Positions 4,535-51,778 of a stretch of 64,000 nucleotides of DNA are shown in pieces (within the stretch, counting starts at the first letter, position 1; each line of letters opens with the position of its first letter). This DNA comes from Chroococcidiopsis sp. CCMEE 29 (GTDB taxonomy: Bacteria > Cyanobacteriota > Cyanobacteriia > Cyanobacteriales > Chroococcidiopsidaceae), in the NCBI RefSeq assembly GCF_023558375.1, contig NZ_CP083761.1, forward strand, positions 2,040,001-2,104,000, written 5' to 3'. The position numbers and the translations under genes were made by a program. The notes under the pieces were generated by a model. The model was not told the origin of the DNA and did not search any database. It saw only the letters and a program-made list of their open reading frames with translations.

Positions 4535-4636
4535 CCTTTCTTAAGCAGGGGAGGCAGGGGGAGCAGGGGGAGCAGGGGGAGCAGGGGGAGCAAGAGTGTA
4601 ATCCAAAATCTAAAATCTAAAATCCCCCTCGCCCCT
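4535..4636. repeat. Short tandem repeat array (9-mer and heptamer)
   Basis: About five copies of a 9-bp unit (GGGGGAGCA) are followed by heptamers of the AAAATCT/AAAATCC type and a CCCCTCGCCCC tail. The same composite occurs at 7108-7165, 9921-10045 and 39690-39790. It resembles the short tandemly repeated repetitive (STRR) sequences described in filamentous cyanobacteria. The rest of the gap between rplS and the lyase gene (4415-4806) is AT-rich with no gene that I can see. Confidence 0.8.
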
Positions 4637-7107: not shown

Positions 7108-7165
7108 TAGGGAGGAGAGCAGGGGGAGCAGGGGAGGCAGGGGAGGCAGGGGAGGCAGGGGAAGA
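7108..7165. repeat. 9-bp tandem array between flv3 and flv1
   Basis: About five degenerate copies of GGGGAGGCA/GGGGGAGCA fill most of the 117-bp gap between flv3 and flv1. The unit is the same as in the arrays at 4535-4636 and 39690-39730. Transcripts of the pair would have to read through a C-rich tract here. Confidence 0.8.
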
Positions 7166-9038: not shown

Positions 9039-9920
9039 TTGAAACCCCAAACACACAAAGGACACAAAGAAAAAACTTGGCTGGCTTTGATGATTGGCAA
9101 TTCACGGCTGCACTGGGCTTTATTTGTAGGAGAAAATCTTCAGTCAGCCTGGGATACTCCACATCTTCCTGCCTCTGTTGTCTACCAGTTAGCTAAGTGC
9201 CAGACACTAGGTGATTTACCCGTAGAACTTGTACCCCCTAGTCAGCTCAATCCAAAATCACGCCACTTTGCTCAACGGGGGGAACCCCCGCACACAAGTG
9301 GCTCCAAAATCCAAAATCCAAAATCTCCCCTGCCCCTTCTTCTAGCTTCTGTTGTTCCCAGTCAAACGGTACTTTGGCAAGCCTATCCAGATGTTCACGC
9401 CATTACGTTAGACCAGGTACCGCTGCAGGGCGTATATCCCACACTGGGAATTGATCGCGCCTTGGCGTTGTGGGGGGCTGGGGAAACCTGGGGCTTACCG
9501 ATACTAGTGATTGATGCTGGGACAGCATTAACTTTAACGGGTGCAGATGCCAATCGTCAGCTAGTTGGGGGAGCGATTCTACCGGGACTCAGCTTGCAGT
9601 TCCAGTCTCTGGCACAAAGAACAGCTGGTTTACCGCTTGTAGATTTATTAGATATCACATGTTTACCAGAGCGATGGGCATTGAATACCCCAGAGGCAAT
9701 TCAAAGTGGCGTGCTCTACACACTGATCGCTGGGATACGCGACTTTATTAACGCTTGGTGGCAAAAATTTCCAGGTAGTAGCATTGTTTTGACCGGAGGC
9801 GATCGCACTTTGCTGCTGAAGTATCTCCAATCCCAGTTTCCCGAAGTAGCCTCCAGAGCAATTGCCGATCCCCATTTAATCTTCTGGGGAATACGCTCTT
9901 ATTTTAGAGGTCAAGATTAA
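9039..9920 (+). CDS. coaX: Type III pantothenate kinase
   Basis: CoaX phosphorylates pantothenate in the first step of coenzyme A synthesis. The product has the ASKHA-fold signatures MIGNSRLHW near the N-terminus, GIDRALALWGA, VIDAGTALTLT and GGAILPGLSLQ. The frame opens with TTG at 9039; an ATG at 9090 would begin directly at MIGNSR and may be too short. Residues about 70-100 are encoded by a repeat insertion (CCAAAATC heptamers plus a palindromic block), making this homologue longer than usual. The core motifs lie outside the insertion, so the enzyme is probably active. Confidence 0.9.
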   Translation: MKPQTHKGHKEKTWLALMIGNSRLHWALFVGENLQSAWDTPHLPASVVYQLAKCQTLGDLPVELVPPSQLNPKSRHFAQRGEPPHTSGSKIQNPKSPLPLLLASVVPSQTVLWQAYPDVHAITLDQVPLQGVYPTLGIDRALALWGAGETWGLPILVIDAGTALTLTGADANRQLVGGAILPGLSLQFQSLAQRTAGLPLVDLLDITCLPERWALNTPEAIQSGVLYTLIAGIRDFINAWWQKFPGSSIVLTGGDRTLLLKYLQSQFPEVASRAIADPHLIFWGIRSYFRGQD

Positions 9921-10045
9921 AAGGGGTCAGGGGTCAGGGATCGGGGGTCAGGGGTCAGAAGAGAGCAGGGGAGGCACGGGAGGCACGGGAGGCAGGGGAA
10001 GCAAGAATGCAATCCAAAATCCAAAATCCAAAATCTAAAATCCCC
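9921..10045. repeat. Composite short tandem repeat array
   Basis: GGGGTCA heptamers, then 9-bp GGGGAGGCA-type units, then CCAAAAT heptamers and a CCCCTAACCCC tail fill the gap between coaX and the convergent NUDIX gene. This is the most complete copy of the composite array in the window. Confidence 0.85.
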
Positions 10046-10051
10046 TAACCC

Positions 10052-10507
10052 CTAAGCTAGCGTGGTGAAGCCAGCAAAATAGTCTTGTAGCTGCTGAGTG
10101 TGGTCATGAGAAAGCTGACCTGGAGGTAGGGCAGTGGGCAGAAAAGCCTGTATTTCCATCACTTCCAGCGTATCTTGAACTTTCATCCTGCCTTTAACTT
10201 CTGCTTCAACCACAATGCAAATTGAATGAATTCTCGGATCGCGGTCTGGTGCCGAGTAAACTCCAACCAATCGGCGAATCTTCACTAAATCTAGTCCAGT
10301 TTCCTCTGCCAACTCCCTTTGCACTGCTGTAGGAATATCTTCCCCCCAGTCTACTATTCCTCCTGGTAGTGCCCACTTCCCATTATCACGTCGCCGAATT
10401 AGAACAATTCGACCATCCGGCAAAATGGGAATGATACTAGTGCCTGGGATGGGATGGCGGAAGATAATGCCAATTACAGTTTGAACAAATTGCCACAAGC
10501 GGCGCAT
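10052..10507 (-). CDS. NUDIX hydrolase
   Basis: NUDIX enzymes cleave nucleoside diphosphates linked to another group, often as housecleaning or salvage reactions. The 151-aa product carries a complete Nudix box: [18 protein letters not shown] followed by AEETGL matches Gx5Ex7REUxEExGU. The N-terminus ([18 protein letters not shown]) is hydrophobic and could be a membrane-associated segment. Substrate cannot be predicted. It is convergent with coaX and separated from it by a repeat array. Confidence 0.88.
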
Positions 10508-16744: not shown

Positions 16745-16861
16745 ATGTGAGGGGTTAGGGGTTAGGGGTTAGGGGTTAGGGGCGAGAAAAGTATAAAGGA
16801 TGAAATTTGCTTCTTCAGCCTTCAGCCTTTAGCCTTCATCCTTTCCCCTGCTTCCCTTGCT
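16745..16861. repeat. GGGGTTA heptamer array
   Basis: About four copies of GGGGTTA lie directly upstream of nusB, followed by degenerate CTTCAGCCTT-type repeats. The array fills most of the nusB-DUF502 gap, so nusB has little room for its own promoter. Confidence 0.7.
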
Positions 16862-17578
16862 TTATTCTTCAGCAGGGAGAATCTGTCGCTTTGGTTCCAT
16901 CAGCGGCGGTTCTAGTTTCCGTTCTTTGGGGAAAACTAGGGGAGGCATTGGGGTACTGGGAGTAACAATGCCTCCCGAGATCACGACCTTAAAAGCATCT
17001 TCAATTGACATTGAGAGGTTCACCACCTCGTCTTCTGGGACAATTGCATACCAGCCAGTCGTGGGATTTGGGGTAGTGGGGATGAAAACACTGAGCATGG
17101 GGCGAGATAGCTGGGATTGAATTTCGTTACTGGTTGTACCTGTGACAAAGGCGATCGCCCAAATTCCTTGTCGGGGATACTCCACTAAAATCACGCGGCG
17201 AAACTTGCCATTTGTATCCTTTAATAGGGTTTCCAGTAACTGTTTGAGGGTTTTGTAAACCGAGCCAGCTAACGGAATTGCCTGCAACACTCGCTCTCCA
17301 AAGTCGAGCAACCAGCGCCCAGCAATATTGCGTGCCATTAAGCCAATCAACAAAATACAAAGTAGTGGGACCGCCAGTCCTACTGCTAGATTCATCAGAT
17401 TGACTAATATGGGATGCATTCCCTCAAAGGGATTCAGCTGTTTTGGAATCCGCGTGAGAAAGTTAATCACCCAATTAGCAATAGTAATTGTTAGCCAGAT
17501 CGTGGTAGCTAAGGGAATTACTACCAATAGACCTGCAATCAGATCGTTCTTTAAGTCTTGTTTGAAGCGTTCGATCAC
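16862..17578 (-). CDS. DUF502 family membrane protein
   Basis: This 238-aa protein has two N-terminal transmembrane helices (about 12-35 and 58-85) and a soluble C-terminal part with the family segments KFRRVILVEYPRQGIWAIAFVTG and VFIPTTPNPTTGWYAIVPEDEV. DUF502 proteins are widespread in bacteria, plastids and plants (COV-like) and their molecular function is not known. The C-terminus is Pro/Lys-rich. It is probably co-transcribed with nusB and ftsY, in line with a housekeeping membrane role. Confidence 0.85.
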   Translation of the reverse strand: MIERFKQDLKNDLIAGLLVVIPLATTIWLTITIANWVINFLTRIPKQLNPFEGMHPILVNLMNLAVGLAVPLLCILLIGLMARNIAGRWLLDFGERVLQAIPLAGSVYKTLKQLLETLLKDTNGKFRRVILVEYPRQGIWAIAFVTGTTSNEIQSQLSRPMLSVFIPTTPNPTTGWYAIVPEDEVVNLSMSIEDAFKVVISGGIVTPSTPMPPLVFPKERKLEPPLMEPKRQILPAEE

Positions 17579-20515: not shown

Positions 20516-22369
20516 CTAGCCCCTAGTTTGGTCGAGCCATGAGGTAACGCTTGCTGGTAACTCTGTACTCAGACGCAGCGGTAGTGCTGGTGTGGAGAGA
20601 GATTCGGCGTAGGCAGGGGTGAGAAAGGGTTCGTAAATTTTAGCTTCTGGCGTCAGCTGTTTGATAAAGGCTAAACTAACGCCTTGAATCAGCTGCTGTA
20701 GGGTTTTGGTTTCTTCACCGCGGCGTTCTTGGATGAGAGTGCTACTAGTGGAGGTACTGCTCAGGTTTGCTGTGTCGCTAATACTCAAGTGAGTGCCGCC
20801 TATAGCCGTTAAGAGATATTTTGGACTGGGTAGCTGGGTGAAAGGCCGCAGCTGATGGTTAAGCACTGGTGTAACAGCGTCTTCGGTTCCAGCCAACAGC
20901 AAGACTGGTGTTGCCACTTGAGTCAGTCCTGTTTTGCCAAACAGATTGCCGATGATCGGATTGAAGGCGATCGCGCTGTTCACGCGCTGGTCTCGCAGCT
21001 TTAGTTTACGATCTGGTAAATCTGCTGCTGCACACTGTAACCAGTCGGCTGGAGCTCGGCTAATAGCAGTGGCACTTTTACAAAACTGCCGCAATTCAGA
21101 AATATTGACTTCTGCCCCAGCTAATGCCAAAGCAGTATATCCACCCAAAGAGTGACCGATTAAACTAACTTGCTGGGTGTTTAGCTTCCCTTGAAGCAAA
21201 CTCTTTTGCTGATTCAGCTTCGCCAGTTCGTCTAGTAAAAAGCTAACATCTTTAGGTCGCTCAACAAATTCTTTAGCTGGCAGCAGTTTAGCGTCACTGC
21301 GATCTGACACACGACCTAGCCAGCTGCTATTACTACCAGGATGTTCTAGTGCAGCTACAGTGAACCCGTGGGAAGCCAGATGACGTGCTAGATAGGTGAA
21401 GAATCTGCGATCTGCTCCTAAGCCGTGGGAGATGACGACGAGGGGTGAGGGACGTAGACGCGCAAGCGGCTTCTCGGAGAGCGAGGTGAGGGATGAGGGG
21501 TGAGGCAGAGGACGCGGTGACGCGGTGACGCGGTGACGCGGGGAATTTCTCCCCTGCTCCCCCTGCTCTCTTCTGACCCTTGACGCCTGACCCCTCTGTT
21601 CCCCTGGTTCGGTGCTGGGAAAGTACAAGTCTACGAGAATCGTGCGGTAGCGTTGCCGATCCAGGAAGGTTAGAGTTTGCTGCTGCACTGGTTGAGAGCC
21701 AGGAACAGCTGGATTAAAGGCGGGTTTGAAGGGTGTGTTAGTAGTGACAGCTAACTCGCTTTCGAGTAAGGGACCAAGCGCTTGGCTTTGTAAGTAGGTG
21801 GGATTGAACTGCAGGGCGATCGCCAGTGCTGCACTCGCGTCTAAGGTAACATTCTCCTTTGGGTAGGCTCGTAAGAAACTAACTAGATTCAATCCATTGG
21901 CTTGCTGCGCTGCTAGTGCTACTGCTGCCTGAATTTGCGGGATTGTACCGTCTGGAATTGCTACTCCCAATGAGTCAACTAATTGTTTGCCTGGAGGAGA
22001 ACGCAACCATTCATCAATTACCTTGTCTGCTAGCTTCGGGTCGATTTGCAGACGACGATTCAATAACTCCCGAACTTGCGGTGTTAATACTGGGGCGTAA
22101 ATTTGAAGGGCAGGAGGCAATTTTCCTGTTTTGGCAAATCGCTCCAAATCGGCGATCGCAATTTTTTGCTCCAATGGTCCTAAGCGCAAAGTCACTTGTT
22201 CCGCAGCCAGAGCCGATGGTATTGATGCTCCCCAACTCAAGCCTAGAGCCAAACTCCACATTAATCCGTGTGCAGTACGTGCCCAAGTTTGTTGAAGCGA
22301 TACTGGCTGCCTAGTGCCAGCAATGCTAAAAAATATTTTACAAGATTGCTCACCAAGCTTAAACTTCAT
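20516..22369 (-). CDS. DUF1400 / alpha-beta hydrolase fusion, probably exported
   Basis: After a hydrophobic signal-like segment ending in ALAAEQ, the protein has a DUF1400 domain (ERFAKTGKLPPALQIYAP, LTPQVRELLNRRL) and a C-terminal alpha/beta hydrolase domain with VVISHGLGADRRFF, nucleophile motif LIGHSLGGYTAL and a late His in GGTHLSIS. This combination is typical of cyanobacteria; the substrate is unknown. I prefer the ATG at 22369; a GTG at 22408 is open in frame. Between the domains lies a low-complexity insert encoded by short tandem repeats (about 21440-21605). Confidence 0.85.
   Translation of the reverse strand: MKFKLGEQSCKIFFSIAGTRQPVSLQQTWARTAHGLMWSLALGLSWGASIPSALAAEQVTLRLGPLEQKIAIADLERFAKTGKLPPALQIYAPVLTPQVRELLNRRLQIDPKLADKVIDEWLRSPPGKQLVDSLGVAIPDGTIPQIQAAVALAAQQANGLNLVSFLRAYPKENVTLDASAALAIALQFNPTYLQSQALGPLLESELAVTTNTPFKPAFNPAVPGSQPVQQQTLTFLDRQRYRTILVDLYFPSTEPGEQRGQASRVRREQGEQGRNSPRHRVTASPRPLPHPSSLTSLSEKPLARLRPSPLVVISHGLGADRRFFTYLARHLASHGFTVAALEHPGSNSSWLGRVSDRSDAKLLPAKEFVERPKDVSFLLDELAKLNQQKSLLQGKLNTQQVSLIGHSLGGYTALALAGAEVNISELRQFCKSATAISRAPADWLQCAAADLPDRKLKLRDQRVNSAIAFNPIIGNLFGKTGLTQVATPVLLLAGTEDAVTPVLNHQLRPFTQLPSPKYLLTAIGGTHLSISDTANLSSTSTSSTLIQERRGEETKTLQQLIQGVSLAFIKQLTPEAKIYEPFLTPAYAESLSTPALPLRLSTELPASVTSWLDQTRG
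21440..21605. repeat. Tandem repeat array inside a coding sequence
   Basis: An 8-bp unit (GTGACGCG) is repeated about four times near 21510-21540. GGTGAGGGATGAGGGG-type repeats lie on one side and CCCCTGCTCCCCCTGC units on the other. The array is read through in frame within the DUF1400/hydrolase gene and encodes an Arg/Pro/Ser-rich linker. Confidence 0.8.
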
Positions 22370-22408
22370 ATTCAAGATTGCTGCCACTTTGGGATAGCTA
22401 AAGATCAC

Positions 22409-29439: not shown

Positions 29440-30066
29440 TTACTCCATTGTCAAGGATGAGCCATCAAGGAGCGGCAAATTCAAAGGTAGTTGTAACTTC
29501 CAGCCAGCTAGGGAGAGGCGATCGCTTACAGACTTCTGCCAAGTGGGTAAAGTATTGTAAAATTCAGGGTGTTGAAGATTGCCGCGCCAGAGAATCAAGG
29601 CATCTTCATTTGTGTCTTTGTAGTAACGTCGCCGCCGCCCAGCTATTTTGAAACCAAACTTTTGATACAAAGATAGAGCTGGTTGATTAGAGGCTCGAAC
29701 TTCGAGCGTGGCTCGTTCCAAGCCGCGATCAGCAGCTACCTGTAGCAGAGCAAGCAGCATGACTTGTCCTAATCCCTGACGCTGGTAGTGGGGATGCACC
29801 GCCAAAATTGTAATATGAGCTTCGTCCAAAATTGCCCAGAGGCAGCCCATGGCTAGGAGGGGTGAGGGAGGAGCAGGGGAGGCAGGGGGAGCAGGGGGAG
29901 CAGGGGAGGCTAATAAACCGAGTAAGACGCTGTTGGGACTGTTTAGCTCTCGCTGATAAGCCTCTAATGTCCACAGACCGCCAAAACATAGATGATCGAG
30001 TTCTAGGACTGCACCCAGCATTTGGGGTGCAATCGGTTTGAGTTCTAATAAAGTCACTGTTTGCAA
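29440..30066 (-). CDS. rimI: Ribosomal protein S18 alanine N-acetyltransferase-like (GNAT)
   Basis: The RimI family acetylates protein N-termini, classically S18. The 208-aa product has the GNAT core: acceptor region CFGGLWTLEAYQREL, ITILAVHPHYQRQGLGQVML with the acetyl-CoA loop, LEVRASNQPALSLYQKFGFK, and RRRYYKDTNEDALIL. A Pro/Ala/Ser-rich insert (about residues 54-68) is encoded by a 9-bp tandem array at 29862-29912. The frame opens with TTG 30066; GTG 30057 is an alternative. It is divergent from lysA across 56 bp. Confidence 0.85.
   Translation of the reverse strand: MQTVTLLELKPIAPQMLGAVLELDHLCFGGLWTLEAYQRELNSPNSVLLGLLASPAPPAPPASPAPPSPLLAMGCLWAILDEAHITILAVHPHYQRQGLGQVMLLALLQVAADRGLERATLEVRASNQPALSLYQKFGFKIAGRRRRYYKDTNEDALILWRGNLQHPEFYNTLPTWQKSVSDRLSLAGWKLQLPLNLPLLDGSSLTME
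29862..29912. repeat. 9-bp tandem array inside rimI
   Basis: Units GCAGGGGAG and GCAGGGGGA alternate four to five times. The 9-bp period keeps the reading frame and encodes Pro-Ala-Ser-rich residues in RimI. The same unit builds the intergenic arrays at 4535, 7108 and 39690. Confidence 0.85.
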
Positions 30067-30122: not shown

Positions 30123-31562
30123 ATGGTATCGACTTATCCGGCTGGGGTTCAAAATTCTGGTAGTCAGTATTTACCTGACTTAACTCTTGCCGCAGCGAAT
30201 CGTTCACCCAACCAGGAACTTTTACCACTTACAGCGCGGATTAATCATCACGATTGTCTAGAAATTGGTGGTTGTGATGTAACAAAGTTGGTACAGCAAT
30301 TTGGTTCACCGCTGTATATTTTGGATGAAGAAACCCTGCGAACCGCTTGCCGTCAGTATCGAGATGCTTTTAAGCGTTACTATCCAGGGGAATCTCAAGT
30401 ACTCTATGCCTCTAAGGCTTGGAGTTGTCTTGCTGTCTGCACGATCGCTAATTCAGAAGGTTTAGGGATCGATGTGGTGTCCGGAGGGGAACTTTACACT
30501 GCTCTCCAGGCAGGTTTAAATCCGGATAAACTATATTTCCACGGCAACAACAAATCTCTAGAAGAACTAACTCTGGCGATTGAATCAGGTTGCACCATTG
30601 TGGTGGATAACTGGCAGGAGTTACGTACTCTAACAAGCTTAGCCGCAGGGGAGAAACTAAGAGCAGGGGAGGCAGGGGGCTCACTTGCCCCTCGAATCAT
30701 GCTACGCTTAACTCCCGGTATCGAGTGTCATACCCACGAATACATCCGCACAGGGCATCTAGATAGTAAATTTGGCTTTGATCCCAATCAGTTAGATGAG
30801 GTGTTTACCTTTGTCAGCCAGCAATCTAGTTTGAATTGCATAGGATTGCACGCCCATATTGGCTCTCAGATTTTTGAACGACAGCCGCATCAAGATCTTG
30901 CTGATGTAATGGTGCAGTGGTTGGATAAAGCGATTAGCTATGGTTTGCCAGTTACAGAATTAAACGTGGGTGGTGGTTTAGGAATTCGGTATACGGAATC
31001 CGACGATCCCCCCAGCGTTGAAGAGTGGGTGAAGGCTATCTGTGAAGTAGTTAAAGATGCCTGTGCAGCTCAACAGCTCCCTCTACCGAAGTTGCTATGT
31101 GAACCAGGGCGATCGCTAATTGGTGCAGCTTGTGTCACTGCTTACACAATTGGCTCATCAAAAGTGGTGCCAGAAATTCGTACTTATGTGGCAGTTGATG
31201 GTGGGATGTCTGATAATCCCCGCCCAATTACTTACCAATCGGTTTATCGAGCAGTCGTAGCTAATCAGATGTCTGTGCCACTGACAGAAACAGTAACAAT
31301 TGCTGGCAAACACTGCGAATCTGGAGACATTTTGATTAAAGATGCGGCTCTGCCTCAGACCCAGCCAGGAGATATCCTTGTAGTCATGGGAACTGGTGCT
31401 TACAATTACAGCATGGCCTCTAACTACAACCGCTTGCCCCGACCAGCAGCAGTTATAGTAAATGCTGGGGAAGCTAATCTCATCCTCCGGCGCGAAACCT
31501 ACCAAGACTTACTTCGTCAAGACTGCCTACCCGGAAGACTAATCAATAGTCAATTCGGTTAA
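30123..31562 (+). CDS. lysA: Diaminopimelate decarboxylase
   Basis: LysA makes lysine from meso-diaminopimelate, the last step of the pathway. The 479-aa product is a fold-III PLP enzyme: VLYASKAWSC holds the Schiff-base Lys, followed by GLGIDVVSGGELYTAL, GLHAHIGSQI, LNVGGGLGIRYTE, LCEPGRSLIG and CESGDILI. A short insert between VDNWQELRTLTSLA and PRIMLRLTPG comes from a GCAGGGGAG-type repeat (30650-30690). The ATG at 30123 is used; the N-terminal 35 residues before the catalytic domain are variable. Confidence 0.96.
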   Translation: MVSTYPAGVQNSGSQYLPDLTLAAANRSPNQELLPLTARINHHDCLEIGGCDVTKLVQQFGSPLYILDEETLRTACRQYRDAFKRYYPGESQVLYASKAWSCLAVCTIANSEGLGIDVVSGGELYTALQAGLNPDKLYFHGNNKSLEELTLAIESGCTIVVDNWQELRTLTSLAAGEKLRAGEAGGSLAPRIMLRLTPGIECHTHEYIRTGHLDSKFGFDPNQLDEVFTFVSQQSSLNCIGLHAHIGSQIFERQPHQDLADVMVQWLDKAISYGLPVTELNVGGGLGIRYTESDDPPSVEEWVKAICEVVKDACAAQQLPLPKLLCEPGRSLIGAACVTAYTIGSSKVVPEIRTYVAVDGGMSDNPRPITYQSVYRAVVANQMSVPLTETVTIAGKHCESGDILIKDAALPQTQPGDILVVMGTGAYNYSMASNYNRLPRPAAVIVNAGEANLILRRETYQDLLRQDCLPGRLINSQFG

Positions 31563-39689: not shown

Positions 39690-39790
39690 AGCAGAGAGAG
39701 CAGGGGGAGCAGGGGGAGCAGGGGAAGCAAGAGTGTAATCCAAAATCCAAAATCCAAAATCTAAAATCCCCTAACCCCTCGCCTCTCTTC
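39690..39790. repeat. Composite short tandem repeat array
   Basis: 9-bp AGCAGGGGG units, then CCAAAAT heptamers, then CCCCTAACCCC fill the gap between cyanoP and maf. The order matches the arrays at 4535-4636 and 9921-10045. Confidence 0.85.
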
Positions 39791-41318: not shown

Positions 41319-43151
41319 TCAAATCCCACCGCTCAAGATGATGTAGGCTCCCCCAGCTGCTGCCGTAGTTGCTAAGAGGGTAGACCAGCCTGGATGACCA
41401 CTGCGACTGACTTTGCCGCCCTGAGTTTGCAAGATGTCAACGTCGATCCAGGGAGTGGCACCTCGACGAAACCAGCCAGTAGCAATGAGATGTCGGTCTA
41501 ATAATTCTGTGGGGCTGGGTGACTGCCTTAGTACAAGATCGCCAACAGGCCATAACCAGGAAATATGGTGTAATTTAACCAAACCAGTAGGAGAGTGCAG
41601 AATTAAGTCTTGTCCTAGCCAGTTACTGATGCCGTGACGACCCAATAGCTTACCTTGTAGGCGAACAGGTTGGCTGTCAATGGGTAATGCCGTTGATGCC
41701 AACAGGTTGGGTAAGTCGGGGTTGATTGTCACAGTAGCAGGTTTGATATCTGGAAATAAGGAATTAATTTGGATGAAGGTTCCAATGCTAAAGCCAATAG
41801 GTAGGCAACCTTGAATGAGTGACCAATCGCCATACATCCAAGCTAGCTGAGCAATCCCTAGCCAACTGCCAATTCCTCCAACTAGCCAAAGCAAACCTCC
41901 AAGGAGGAAACCGAAGAGAATGCCGAAAAAGGGAGCGACCTGTAATAAAAGAGCAGGGGAGGCAGGGGGAGATGAAGAATTAAATATTCTGTCTGTTTCT
42001 TTCCTGGCTAGATTCAGTTCGGGTTCTAGTCGCCAATGGTGGGCTATGTGAGTAAGGTGATGGAGGCGATCGCCCATTAGGGGATGGGTATGATTAATAT
42101 TTAGCCAGTAGCGAGCAGGGTTTAGATATTCCCAAGCCAGGACAGATTCAAACTGGGAGTATGAGTGTAAGTTACCCAAGGCGATCGCTTGGTCGTAGCT
42201 GATTAATGTCAATAGATTCCAGCTTTCCAACAGCCAACTGGTATGTCCTTGTTGCTGGATATCTTTGTTAATGCCTTGAGCTATTTTGAGTAAGGCACGA
42301 GTTAGACCATTAGGATTGCCGGTGATTTCAGCAGCGAGGCGATCACTGTAGTAAATCCGTAGCTGAGACAACCATAAAGCAGGTCCGCTTAGCAAACACC
42401 AAAGTCCATAAGCGCAGTTAGCGAATACTGCTGCAATGACCCGTAAAAATTCGTTGGTTATCCGATCTTCCCGTACAGATCCTTGCTGATAGATAGTGTA
42501 GGGTAGGTGAGTTACCAGAATGAACAGGGACATAACGACAAAATCCCAATGAGTAATATGCCCCAACTGAGCTGCATAGATAGTGGCAATTTCATCATCA
42601 GCCAGCTGCTCTAACAATCCCTGAGTAACTACGATTCGGGCAGTGCGGGGCAAATTTCCATAGGTCAGTGCTAGGGGTGTTGATATTGGCAGAATACTCA
42701 ACTTGGGTAGTGACCAATTTCGCTGTTGACAATAGCGTTTTAGCACCCTGCTTGCTTCCGGACTGTAGGTAGAGAGGGCATTAATTGATAGCGGTTGAAG
42801 ACGATAAAATAGCTTTAGCAGTGCATCTAACAACCAGGGCGACAAGAGCATCAGAATGCCCAGCGTCAGTAGAATTGACTGGGTTGGATCGCGGTAGAAC
42901 GGTTGAAACGGCTCTAAATATGGCAGCTTGACTAAAAGATCATTCGTGAATGCCATGGCAAATTTAATCAATTCCCGCAGCAGCCAAAACAGAGCGATCG
43001 CCGTGCCGAACTGTAGCAGTAAAAATGGGATGAAGTTAACTGCGCTTAAAGCTTGCCATCGCTTTGCTCGTCCGGCTTGCCGCCACTGAGAGAGTGAGGA
43101 GTGAGGCAATTTTGGATTTTTGGTTTTGGATTTTGGATTACACTCTTGCAC
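41319..43151 (-). CDS. M48 (HtpX-like) membrane protein lacking HExxH
   Basis: This protein of about 610 aa has N-terminal transmembrane helices (about 40-70 and 90-112), an M48-like domain (PLALTYGNLPRTARIVVTQGLLEQLADDEIA) and further hydrophobic regions near 405-450 and at the C-terminus. The usual zinc-binding HExxH is replaced by AAQLGH, with Ala and Gln at the first His and catalytic Glu. It is therefore probably not a protease. The N-terminus and residues about 392-403 come from repeats. The start is uncertain: GTG 43151 lies in a heptamer array. Confidence 0.8.
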   Translation of the reverse strand: MQECNPKSKTKNPKLPHSSLSQWRQAGRAKRWQALSAVNFIPFLLLQFGTAIALFWLLRELIKFAMAFTNDLLVKLPYLEPFQPFYRDPTQSILLTLGILMLLSPWLLDALLKLFYRLQPLSINALSTYSPEASRVLKRYCQQRNWSLPKLSILPISTPLALTYGNLPRTARIVVTQGLLEQLADDEIATIYAAQLGHITHWDFVVMSLFILVTHLPYTIYQQGSVREDRITNEFLRVIAAVFANCAYGLWCLLSGPALWLSQLRIYYSDRLAAEITGNPNGLTRALLKIAQGINKDIQQQGHTSWLLESWNLLTLISYDQAIALGNLHSYSQFESVLAWEYLNPARYWLNINHTHPLMGDRLHHLTHIAHHWRLEPELNLARKETDRIFNSSSPPASPALLLQVAPFFGILFGFLLGGLLWLVGGIGSWLGIAQLAWMYGDWSLIQGCLPIGFSIGTFIQINSLFPDIKPATVTINPDLPNLLASTALPIDSQPVRLQGKLLGRHGISNWLGQDLILHSPTGLVKLHHISWLWPVGDLVLRQSPSPTELLDRHLIATGWFRRGATPWIDVDILQTQGGKVSRSGHPGWSTLLATTAAAGGAYIILSGGI

Positions 43152-49612: not shown

Positions 49613-49735
49613 CGTACGGGTGGGTTCTACCGACTTGTCTGTTGGCTCATAGGTGCGTCTGATGAACCCGCCCCTACTTCTTGTGATTTGGCTCATAGGT
49701 ATTGTCTGATCAACCTGCCCCTACTTCTTGTGATA
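49613..49735. repeat. Partial GTAGGGGC element with tandem 46-bp copy
   Basis: GTACGGGTGGGTTC...GAACCCGCCCCTAC (49613-49676) is a member of the dispersed palindrome family. Its right part (TTGGCTCATAGGT...CCCCTACTTCTTGTGAT) is repeated once more directly after it, ending near 49735, with several substitutions. Confidence 0.75.
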
Positions 49736-49807: not shown

Positions 49808-50827
49808 ATGAAGATCAGGAAAGAAACTGAAAGCCACCCTCCCTTGGGATACCGCACCAGAAGGAGAGGTTTATCCGTACTAGCGCTGCTGCTGCTATCA
49901 GCTATCACGGGTTGTGAACAACCCACTGCAACGCAGCCTCAGGCGCAGGAGGCTACACCTCAAGCACAGCAGCTCGAAGTGGTGGCAACTTTTCTGCCAA
50001 TGTATTGGTTAACCAGAGCAGTGACTGGAGATACAGCAAACGTAGATGTTTTGATTCCACCAGGCTCAGAGGTACATGAATACCAGGCAACACCAGCAGA
50101 TGTGCAAGCGATCGCCCAAGCTAATGTGTTAGTGAAAAATGGTCTGGGTATGGAGGAATTTCTCGCAGGCACGGTAAAAAGTGCTCAGAATCCTCAGCTG
50201 AGAGAGATTAATACCAGCCAAGGCATTGAGCCTTTGAAAGATACTGCGCCAGTTGCGGCTAAAACGGACGATCACGATCATGATCATGCGGGAGAAACCG
50301 ATCATGGTCACACCCACGAGGAGGGAAATCCTCATGTCTGGCTCGATCCAGTGTTGGCGCAACAGCAGGTAACAAATATTCGTGACGGTTTAATTGCAGC
50401 TGACCCCGCGAATAAAGCAACCTATGAAGCCAACGCTGCTACCTATGTCCAGCAGTTGCAGACACTAGATAAAGAGTTTCAGCAGCGCTTGCAAAAGTAT
50501 CCCAACTGTACGTTTGTAACCTTTCATGACGCTTACCCTTACCTGGCTAATCGCTACGGTTTGAAGCAGGTTGCAGTGGTGCAAATTCCAGAAGATCAAC
50601 TCTCACCCGCGGATGTAAGTAATACGATTAATGCGGTGAAAAAGTACAACGTTAAAGCCGTGTTTGGAGAACCAGAGGTAGATAACCGATTGCTGAAAAG
50701 TCTTGCTCAAGACCTGAACTTGACTTACCGAGTGATAGATCCTTTGGAATCAGGACCACTCGATCCGCAGCACTACTTCCAAGTGATGCGGACCAATCTG
50801 CAAAGCATAGAAGCAGGTTGTCGATAG
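49808..50827 (+). CDS. znuA: Zinc ABC transporter, substrate-binding protein
   Basis: ZnuA captures zinc in the periplasm for the ZnuBC transporter. The 339-aa product has a lipoprotein-like signal (LLLLSAITGCEQ), the ZnuA-type cluster A-I fold and a His/Asp-rich loop (DDHDHDHAGETDHGHTH) typical of zinc rather than manganese binding. Metal-binding residues lie in PHVWLDPVLA and TFHDAYPYLANRYG. It is followed at once by znuC, and a Zur-like site precedes it. Confidence 0.95.
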   Translation: MKIRKETESHPPLGYRTRRRGLSVLALLLLSAITGCEQPTATQPQAQEATPQAQQLEVVATFLPMYWLTRAVTGDTANVDVLIPPGSEVHEYQATPADVQAIAQANVLVKNGLGMEEFLAGTVKSAQNPQLREINTSQGIEPLKDTAPVAAKTDDHDHDHAGETDHGHTHEEGNPHVWLDPVLAQQQVTNIRDGLIAADPANKATYEANAATYVQQLQTLDKEFQQRLQKYPNCTFVTFHDAYPYLANRYGLKQVAVVQIPEDQLSPADVSNTINAVKKYNVKAVFGEPEVDNRLLKSLAQDLNLTYRVIDPLESGPLDPQHYFQVMRTNLQSIEAGCR

Positions 50828-50832
50828 CCTTG

Positions 50833-51657
50833 ATGCACTCTAAAACAACTCACACCCAATACCCTGTTTTGAGGGTAGAGGGATTAACCGTTTATCAGGG
50901 CAGTTATCTTGCTGTCCGCGATGTCTCATTTGAATTGTTACCAGGAACAGATACAGCTGTAGTTGGTCCCAATGGAGCAGGTAAAAGTACGCTAGTGCAA
51001 GCGATTCTAGGGTTAATTCCGCGAACTGGCAAGGTTGAAATTTTTGGTCGCCCAGTCGAACGGTTGGGGCATTTATGTCATCAAATCGGCTATATGCCAC
51101 AGAATTTTATCTTTGACCGGAGTTTCCCCATTTCTGTAAGCGAATTAGTGGGGTTGGGATGGGTAAAGGGACGAAGGGCGAGGGGCGAGGGGCGAGAGAT
51201 AAACCGTCGCAACTCAGCAATTGGATTTATGGGGATTCAACAACAATTGCCGGAAAAACAAGTAGCAATTTCGCAAGCTTTACAGCGAGTCGGCGCTTAC
51301 AATCTGCGGCATAAAGGAATCGGCACCCTCAGTGGTGGTGAACTGAAGCGAGTGTTACTAGCTTATTGCTTAGTGATGCCTCGTCAGCTTTTGGTACTGG
51401 ATGAAGCGTTTGCTGGTATTGATGTGCAAGGTGCGGCAGATTTTTATGCCTTACTGGATGAACTCAAGCGCGAGGAAAATTGGACTGTTTTGCAAGTTTC
51501 CCATGATATTGATATGGTGAGCCGTCGTTGCGATCGCGTTATCTGCCTCAACCAAAGTCTAGTCTGCACTGGAACACCAGAGATTGCTCTTTCACCCCAA
51601 AACCTGTTAGCTACCTATGGTCCTAGCTTCAGTCGCTACCACCATCACCATAACTAG
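50833..51657 (+). CDS. znuC: Zinc ABC transporter, ATP-binding protein
   Basis: ZnuC powers zinc import. The product has Walker A VGPNGAGKSTLVQAIL, signature LSGGELKRVLLAYCL, Walker B LLVLDEAFAGID and the H-loop (VSHDIDMV). I chose the ATG at 50833, 6 nt past the znuA stop; a TTG at 50818 overlaps znuA and is also open. An insert (GRRARGEGREINRR) is encoded by a GGGCGAG heptamer array at 51172-51200, three units long, so it keeps the frame. The C-terminus is His-rich (RYHHHHN). Confidence 0.93.
   Translation: MHSKTTHTQYPVLRVEGLTVYQGSYLAVRDVSFELLPGTDTAVVGPNGAGKSTLVQAILGLIPRTGKVEIFGRPVERLGHLCHQIGYMPQNFIFDRSFPISVSELVGLGWVKGRRARGEGREINRRNSAIGFMGIQQQLPEKQVAISQALQRVGAYNLRHKGIGTLSGGELKRVLLAYCLVMPRQLLVLDEAFAGIDVQGAADFYALLDELKREENWTVLQVSHDIDMVSRRCDRVICLNQSLVCTGTPEIALSPQNLLATYGPSFSRYHHHHN
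51172..51200. repeat. GGGCGAG heptamer array inside znuC
   Basis: Three tandem copies of GGGCGAG (21 bp, divisible by three) are read in frame within znuC and encode an Arg/Gly/Glu-rich loop. Confidence 0.8.
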
Positions 51658-51778
51658 GGATTAGAGGTTAGGGGTTAGAGGTTAGGCAGGAAACTCCAGA
51701 TAAACTTTCTTAAAAACAAAGACTATTAATCCACCAGCAGATCTTCTAGTTCTTTTCCTAATCCCTAATCCCTAATTT

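Follow-up and report, generated by a model that had tools for sequence, protein, structure and literature searches.

Stop content, frame choice and site probably explain nine-base repeat arrays inside cyanobacterial genes better than unit length alone

In the cyanobacterium Chroococcidiopsis sp. CCMEE 29, short tandem arrays of a GCAGGGG nonamer lie both between genes and within them, and their occurrence in genes is better accounted for by stop content, frame choice and site than by unit length alone. Nonamers exceed heptamers inside genes, and much of this raw enrichment reflects stop codons. The in-gene nonamer copies that we examined are read in frames giving mostly small or polar residues. 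A first-pass annotation of the region had proposed a simpler rule, in which a unit divisible by three can spread through coding DNA without frameshift, unlike the heptamers.

Results

Nonamer arrays in the 64-kb window

The window is the whole stretch of 64,000 nt analysed here, within the main contig of a 6.39-Mb genome in two contigs. It contains 19 GCAGGGGNN pairs, counted as matches to GCAGGGGNNGCAGGGG (at most one mismatch), against 0.02 expected, and none of 100 shuffles reaches 19. Tandem Repeats Finder (TRF) places period-9 arrays at 4544-4592, 7114-7162, 9965-10003, 29872-29907 and 39690-39729. The nonamer copies in lysA and in an M48-like gene are absent from its output at score 30; they are short (three units, one of them set apart, and two units, respectively) and are members of the same GCAGGGG family. 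Nine-base arrays between genes and inside rimI, lysA and the M48-like gene, as the first-pass annotation had reported, are thus confirmed. Its list lacked a fourth in-gene copy at 21551-21566, in an alpha/beta-hydrolase gene, and an intergenic two-unit copy at 16843-16862. The features are as follows.

29440-30066, minus strand: rimI-like GNAT acetyltransferase gene (PF00583) that holds an array; "rimI" is the label of the first-pass annotation
29865-29907, plus strand: nonamer array of four GCAGGGG units and partial units in the rimI-like gene; the C-rich strand is sense
30123-31562, plus strand: lysA-like PLP-dependent decarboxylase (PF02784, PF00278)
30645-30678, plus strand: three GCAGGGG units in lysA, encoding AGEKLRAGEAGG; the first unit lies 18 bp apart from the second
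41319-43151, minus strand: M48-family peptidase-like gene (PF01435)
41953-41968, plus strand: two-unit GCAGGGG copy in the M48-like gene, encoding PPASPA
21487-21595, minus strand: composite in an alpha/beta-hydrolase ORF (20516-22408), between its DUF1400 and hydrolase matches
4544-4592, plus strand: intergenic nonamer array, followed by linker GAGCAAGAGTGT and AATC(C/T)AA heptamers
7114-7162, plus strand: intergenic nonamer array, followed by linker AAGATTAGATATATTTAT and CCTTCAG heptamers
9922-10057, plus strand: intergenic composite of AGGGGTC heptamers, nonamer array (9965-10003), AATCCAA heptamers and CCCCTAA heptamers
39690-39769, plus strand: intergenic nonamer array, linker AAGCAAGAGTGT and AATCCAA heptamers
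51167-51196, plus strand: AGGGGCG heptamer array in an ABC-transporter ATPase gene, inside the ABC_tran match
9303-9325, plus strand: TCCAAAA heptamer array in a type III pantothenate kinase ORF, outside the Pfam match

The composite in the hydrolase ORF consists of heptamers (21487-21505 and 21573-21595), two nonamer units (21551-21566) and an octamer array of ACCGCGTC (21511-21541). Together with the last two features listed, its heptamer and octamer arrays are counter-examples, within the window itself, to the idea that heptamers are kept out of ORFs. An Rfam search of the window gave three matches (two tRNAs and an L10 leader), none overlapping an array. The leader, ribosomal protein L10 leader RF00557 (62.9 bits), lies at 1285-1452 on the minus strand. 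A 47-bp unit in two tandem copies (score 149) occupies 49642-49734, upstream of the ORF at 49808.

Unit length and stop codons

Arrays were counted inside and outside genes in 80 evenly spaced main-contig stretches plus the window, one stretch being shortened where it met the window. This sample covers the main contig only and totals 1,651,455 bases (1.65 Mb, about a quarter of the genome, including 2,500 N), with 1,637 called genes and 84% coding sequence; genes were called by our own hexamer-score ORF caller. We counted TRF arrays with a score of at least 36, at least 2.5 copies and a consensus length equal to the period, dropping all other rows and merging overlapping ones. Arrays that partly overlap a gene (n = 24) were scored as not inside, and "internal" arrays lie 90 bp or more from either end of the gene. 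One relative, G001, was sampled over 400 kb; its repeat units differ from those of the Chroococcidiopsis genome. All relatives searched belong to other genera than the source genome.

GCAGGGG nonamers are inside genes in 21 of 60 cases versus 37 of 243 for heptamers (p = 0.0015), and the difference holds for internal arrays (14/60 versus 24/243, p = 0.008). The expected enrichment of nine-base arrays in genes is therefore present when they are set against all heptamers, but octamers also reach 7/21. Other nonamers are inside genes in 10 of 14 cases, 12-mers in 26 of 32 and 15-mers in 10 of 10. The rates for GCAGGGG nonamers and heptamers are both far under the 84% expected from random placement.

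Because a heptamer array passes through all three frames, each of its strands is either wholly stop-free or not, and heptamers can be sorted accordingly. Those with stops on both strands are inside genes in 2 of 84 cases (one a short array of 2.6 copies, the other an imperfect array). Those open on one strand are inside genes in 12 of 66 cases, all 12 in the open orientation, and those stop-free on both strands in 23 of 93, a rate no different from that of nonamers (21/60, p = 0.20); the same is seen for internal arrays (15/93 versus 14/60, p = 0.30). The point estimates, 35% for nonamers and 25% for stop-free heptamers, give the nonamer a slight lead. The phrase "unlike the heptamers" is thus not supported, and the first-pass rule is borne out only in the comparison with heptamers taken as a whole. 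A heptamer insert stays in frame when its total length is a multiple of three.

G001 gives a similar picture. Closed heptamers are inside genes in 1 of 19 cases, those open on one strand in 17 of 124 (17/17 in the open orientation) and those open on both in 18 of 40; nonamers of all units are inside in 12 of 31 and octamers in 2 of 5. Stop-free heptamers and nonamers do not differ there (p = 0.64), and the contrast of closed with open heptamers (1/19 versus 35/164) is not significant in G001 alone (p = 0.13). When both genomes are pooled, nonamers stand at 33/91 and both-strand-open heptamers at 41/133 (p = 0.47). The contrast between open and closed heptamers is partly definitional, because a called ORF cannot carry an in-frame stop, and it shows what genes can carry rather than selection by itself. 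No such definition lies behind the finding that open heptamers and octamers occur in ORFs at rates like those of nonamers.

Closed heptamers often contain the stop codon of a neighbouring gene (17 of 84). Fewer heptamers do so when one strand is open (5 of 66) or both are (4 of 93), and among nonamers 2 of 74 do. A (TAGGGGT)n array in the window (51655-51686) opens with the TAG stop codon of an ABC ATPase gene (50818-51657). Of the intergenic nonamer arrays, 30 have a same-sense gene upstream; all 30 begin no more than 64 bp from the end of that gene, and 16 no more than 9 bp.

Reading frames and encoded peptides

All six frames of the nonamer are stop-free, which makes its frame use a free test. 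The sample holds 90 nonamer chains, 55 not inside called genes and 35 inside, 26 of the latter internal. Three of the six stop-free frames are used and the others are empty. Of the internal chains, 13 are in G-sense frame 0, 5 in G-sense frame 2 and 8 in C-sense frame 1, and the peptides are Ala-Gly-Glu/Gly and variants (19 chains, 13 internal), Glu/Lys-Gln-Gly (7, 5 internal) and Pro/Ser-Pro-Ala (9, 8 internal). The Pro/Ala/Ser- or Gly-rich loops that the first-pass annotation described are borne out by these peptides. By translation of the unit, the empty frames would encode Arg-Gly, Pro-Leu or Pro-Cys repeats. With equal and independent frames, the chance for the internal set of finding none of 18 chains in G-sense frame 1 is 0.0007 and that of finding 8 of 8 in one C-sense frame is 0.0005, although the 26 chains are not fully independent because some share a gene. 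This frame use suggests that, over and above frame, the peptide itself is filtered.

Array sites in proteins

In-frame nonamer arrays occur at tolerated sites of unrelated genes: rimI, lysA, M48, miaA and, as a candidate insertion, a gene that we take to be PEP-synthase-like. We ranked length-variable segments in these five genes, which were picked because they bear arrays and not at random, using 29 to 33 relative rows per gene with the own sequence excluded. By this measure the array site comes top in rimI (5 segments), lysA (6) and miaA (6), second among 30 in M48 and fifth among 20 in the PEP-synthase-like gene. In the rimI model (mean pLDDT 87.1) the array lies between predicted beta strands 46-54 and 70-79, and confidence drops there to block means of 69 and 64, against 95 and 96 in the flanking blocks. 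The lysA model is weak (mean pLDDT 66), with residues 180-186, between a helix and a strand, below 50.

In these five genes the arrays sit in loops of variable length, and several such loops carry other repeats in relatives; repeat types in these loops were assigned by eye. The rimI loop carries a nonamer array in G006 (PPAPPASPASPA) and, in G001, the seven-residue repeat NYQLPTT, the product of that genome's AACTACC heptamer. The rimI of G004 (72% identical) is without such a tract and ten residues shorter at the array site. In miaA (PF01715) the loop holds a palindrome in G001 and G012, another palindrome in G005, a heptamer array with nonamer-like units in G007, nonamers of a variant unit in G010 and nonamers in G011. 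The in-frame palindromes at nonamer loops were seen at L319 and L325 (miaA of G001 and G012, GTGTAGAGACGTTGCATGCAACGTCTCTACAC) and at L351-L353. A scan of named genomes returned mostly distant GNAT proteins, the best cyanobacterial matches being to Sphaerospermopsis and an Oscillatoriales MAG.

Composites and spread among genomes

Nonamer arrays often have company. We defined a composite neighbour as a recognised heptamer or octamer array at most 45 bp away, with direction read on the G-rich strand. Among 86 two-unit nonamer arrays in the sample, such an array lies downstream in 34 and upstream in 9; the other 52 have none within 45 bp downstream. Upstream modules are heptamers of AGGGGTC or GAGGGGC type. 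Downstream modules are AATCYAA, CCCCTRA, CCCCTCG, CCTTCAG or CACCGCGT arrays, lying past recurring linkers that include AAGCAAGAGTGT, GAGAAAATTC and GAGATATATTTTCATT. Transitions in the sample include nonamer to AATCYAA (19), AATCYAA to CCCCTRA (9), AGGGGTY to nonamer (8), nonamer to CCCCTRA (7) and nonamer to CCCCTCG (4), and the transition table for the 86 arrays contains none in reverse order. Under looser array criteria there is one exception, a nonamer with an AGGGATC array downstream (L187). Composites also occur inside called genes, for example at L187 2527-2645, L247 13425-13560 and 21487-21595 of the window.

The order looks similar in G001, where nonamers of AAGGGGGAC type are preceded by AGCAGGG or AGTCGGG heptamers and followed by AACTACC, ACTAGCC or AATTACC; neighbours number 7 upstream and 13 downstream in counts that were not de-duplicated and may hold duplicates, and AAAAGTC occurs once on each side. 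At three sites (L194, L225 and L235), TAAGCTGTTGTGCATTTAAACTGCATCGTGTTGGCA, another dispersed element, immediately precedes nonamer arrays. A hairpin of G-rich arm, loop and C-rich arm was considered but not kept as a general feature: RNA folding of four composites gave no clear gain in stability over dinucleotide shuffles (z = -0.86, -1.53, -1.47 and -0.01).

Genome-wide, the three-unit nonamer pattern has 289 matches (overlapping positions, at most one mismatch), and the reversed pattern has none. Its distribution is patchy. Only 11 of 60 genomes have any match, the leading seven counts being 289 (this genome), 98, 40, 37, 16, 5 and 5. The linker AAGAGTGTAATCCAAAATC (at most one mismatch) has 47 matches in this genome and none in the 59 others. 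In G006, five of eight loci, chosen partly because their matches came in pairs, are units of about 140-270 bp bounded by facing nonamer arrays, which could possibly represent a form like that of miniature inverted-repeat transposable elements (MITEs). These facing inverted pairs were seen at L294-L298, and the L294 arrays share identical variable positions. Three contigs of G011 (C1, C7 and C15) begin with nonamer arrays (L302, L303 and L304), and its miaA is split across C22 and C1; nonamer arrays may break short-read assemblies.

Discussion

The account that we consider best, and probable, is that composites and single arrays are copied about the genome and thinned inside genes by selection. 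The nonamer would be one module of a dispersed repeat copied to many sites, often in the company of heptamer arrays, in an order that hardly varies and together with linkers that recur, and its copies would arrive both in genes and between them. Survival in a gene would then need three things jointly: an insert length that is a multiple of three, a stop-free sense strand, and a small or polar peptide in a length-variable part of the protein. The nonamer would pass often, because addition of whole units is a multiple of three and there is no stop in six frames, and a stop-free heptamer array would pass about as often. We infer both the mobility of the copies and the role of selection as a filter; what is directly observed is composite order and linkers, counts inside and outside genes, frame use, position in five proteins and absence from most relatives. 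Neither a target-site duplication nor a precise empty site came to light in the comparison with these relatives.

It seems unlikely that divisibility by three is the main reason why nonamers, and not heptamers, spread in genes. The raw difference (21/60 versus 37/243, p = 0.0015) fits that rule, as does the mostly in-gene location of other periods divisible by three, the 12-mers and 15-mers, and the in-ORF tandem repeats described for Borg elements all have a unit divisible by three (PMC9879509). Even among stop-free arrays the own-genome estimates lean slightly to the nonamer. Yet stop-free heptamers (23/93) do not differ from nonamers (p = 0.20), octamers reach 7/21, heptamers stand at 18/40 and nonamers at 12/31 in G001, and the pooled comparison is level (p = 0.47). 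Retention for function, for example through DNA or mRNA G-quadruplexes that tune expression, strikes us as very improbable. Related G-rich heptamers are described as forming G-quadruplexes in vitro and favouring four units in Xanthomonas and Nostoc (PMC4692102), and here 26 of 35 in-gene chains have a G-rich sense strand (p = 0.006), as do 18 of 26 internal ones (p = 0.08). But 17 of the 35 have only two exact units, too few to form a four-tract quadruplex on their own, copy number shows no difference between in-gene and intergenic chains (p = 0.71), both orientations occur, and the array loops hold other repeats in some relatives. Selection for G-quadruplexes inside genes was set aside, there being no preference for four units among in-gene chains.

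Two further readings concern where the in-gene copies came from. They could be the product of local replication slippage within loops rich in proline or glycine, with no import; the range of copy numbers, 2 to 7 in genes and outside them alike, would suit this, as would a PEP-synthase-like linker that is Pro/Ser/Ala-rich in several relatives without pure arrays. We regard slippage as improbable, given that one nonamer unit, partly with identical non-repetitive linkers and neighbouring arrays, recurs at many sites (90 chains) and that the rimI of G004 is without any such tract and 10 residues shorter. A stronger contender, though still a minority view on our reckoning, is that shared sites descend from arrays of a common ancestor that decayed in most lineages, rather than from repeated arrival. 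The PEP-synthase-like gene of G014, G009 and G013 has TCC/TCT/GCT-rich tracts of equal length (16 residues) at the site, so that descent from an old array may apply there; miaA of G007, too, holds apparent decayed nonamers. Against descent as the general explanation, relatives carry unrelated inserts (palindromes in miaA of G001, G012 and G005, heptamers in that of G007, the heptamer peptide in rimI of G001), many have short miaA and rimI loops, and a five-protein tree sets G006, G011 and the Chroococcidiopsis genome apart. Copying followed by selection in genes remains the account that we prefer.

Short tandem repeats of cyanobacteria are known as short tandemly repeated repetitive (STRR) sequences. 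Like STRRs and G-rich heptamers, the nonamer forms short tandem units at many chromosomal sites (289 matches, none in the reversed control), mostly intergenic (55/90) and near stop codons (30/30 within 64 bp). It differs from them in a unit of nine bases rather than seven, the heptamers being its neighbours in composites, and in that part of the arrays are joined by linkers to heptamers in a nearly set order. In-gene copies and frames are analysed here, and a four-unit preference is not seen. The comparison for G-rich heptamers is with the GGGGA(C/T)T heptamers of Nostoc PCC 7120 (Rehm et al. 2015, PMC4692102).

Rickettsia palindromic elements (RPEs), as described in PMC10969869, are similar in being in-frame repeats in many unrelated protein genes, seemingly compatible with the fold. 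An RPE is palindromic, measures about 150 bp and encodes a single conserved peptide (PMC10969869), whereas here arrays are about 20-60 bp, composites extend to about 140 bp, there are three peptide types and mobility is a matter of inference. The arrays of Borg extrachromosomal elements, in the account given in PMC9879509, also lie in ORFs and yield low-complexity, disorder-prone peptides, and they likewise lack stop codons and the Cys codon TGC; here, unlike in that account, heptamers and octamers are also found in ORFs and one unit recurs at many sites. Among the matches listed in a search of titles and abstract starts in the open-licence literature, none describes the nonamer or its frame use, which is weak evidence of absence. 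We view the nonamer as a variant alongside the known STRR heptamers, RPEs and Borg repeats, set apart by its nonamer unit, linkers and module order. A bolder idea, which we hold to be doubtful, is that it belongs to a non-autonomous mobile element of new design, with a conserved module order and units replaced from genus to genus, that supplies new flexible enzyme loops. The order of that design would, just as tentatively, be G-rich heptamers, G-rich nonamers, a short linker and C- or T-rich heptamers.

If copying and selection are the right account, a one-factor rule, that the unit be divisible by three, gives way to a testable filter of three factors: total length, a stop-free sense strand and a harmless peptide at a variable site. 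It would also point to a way in which neutral or selfish repeats lengthen loops in conserved cyanobacterial enzymes, unrelated repeats occupying some of the orthologous loops from one genus to another.
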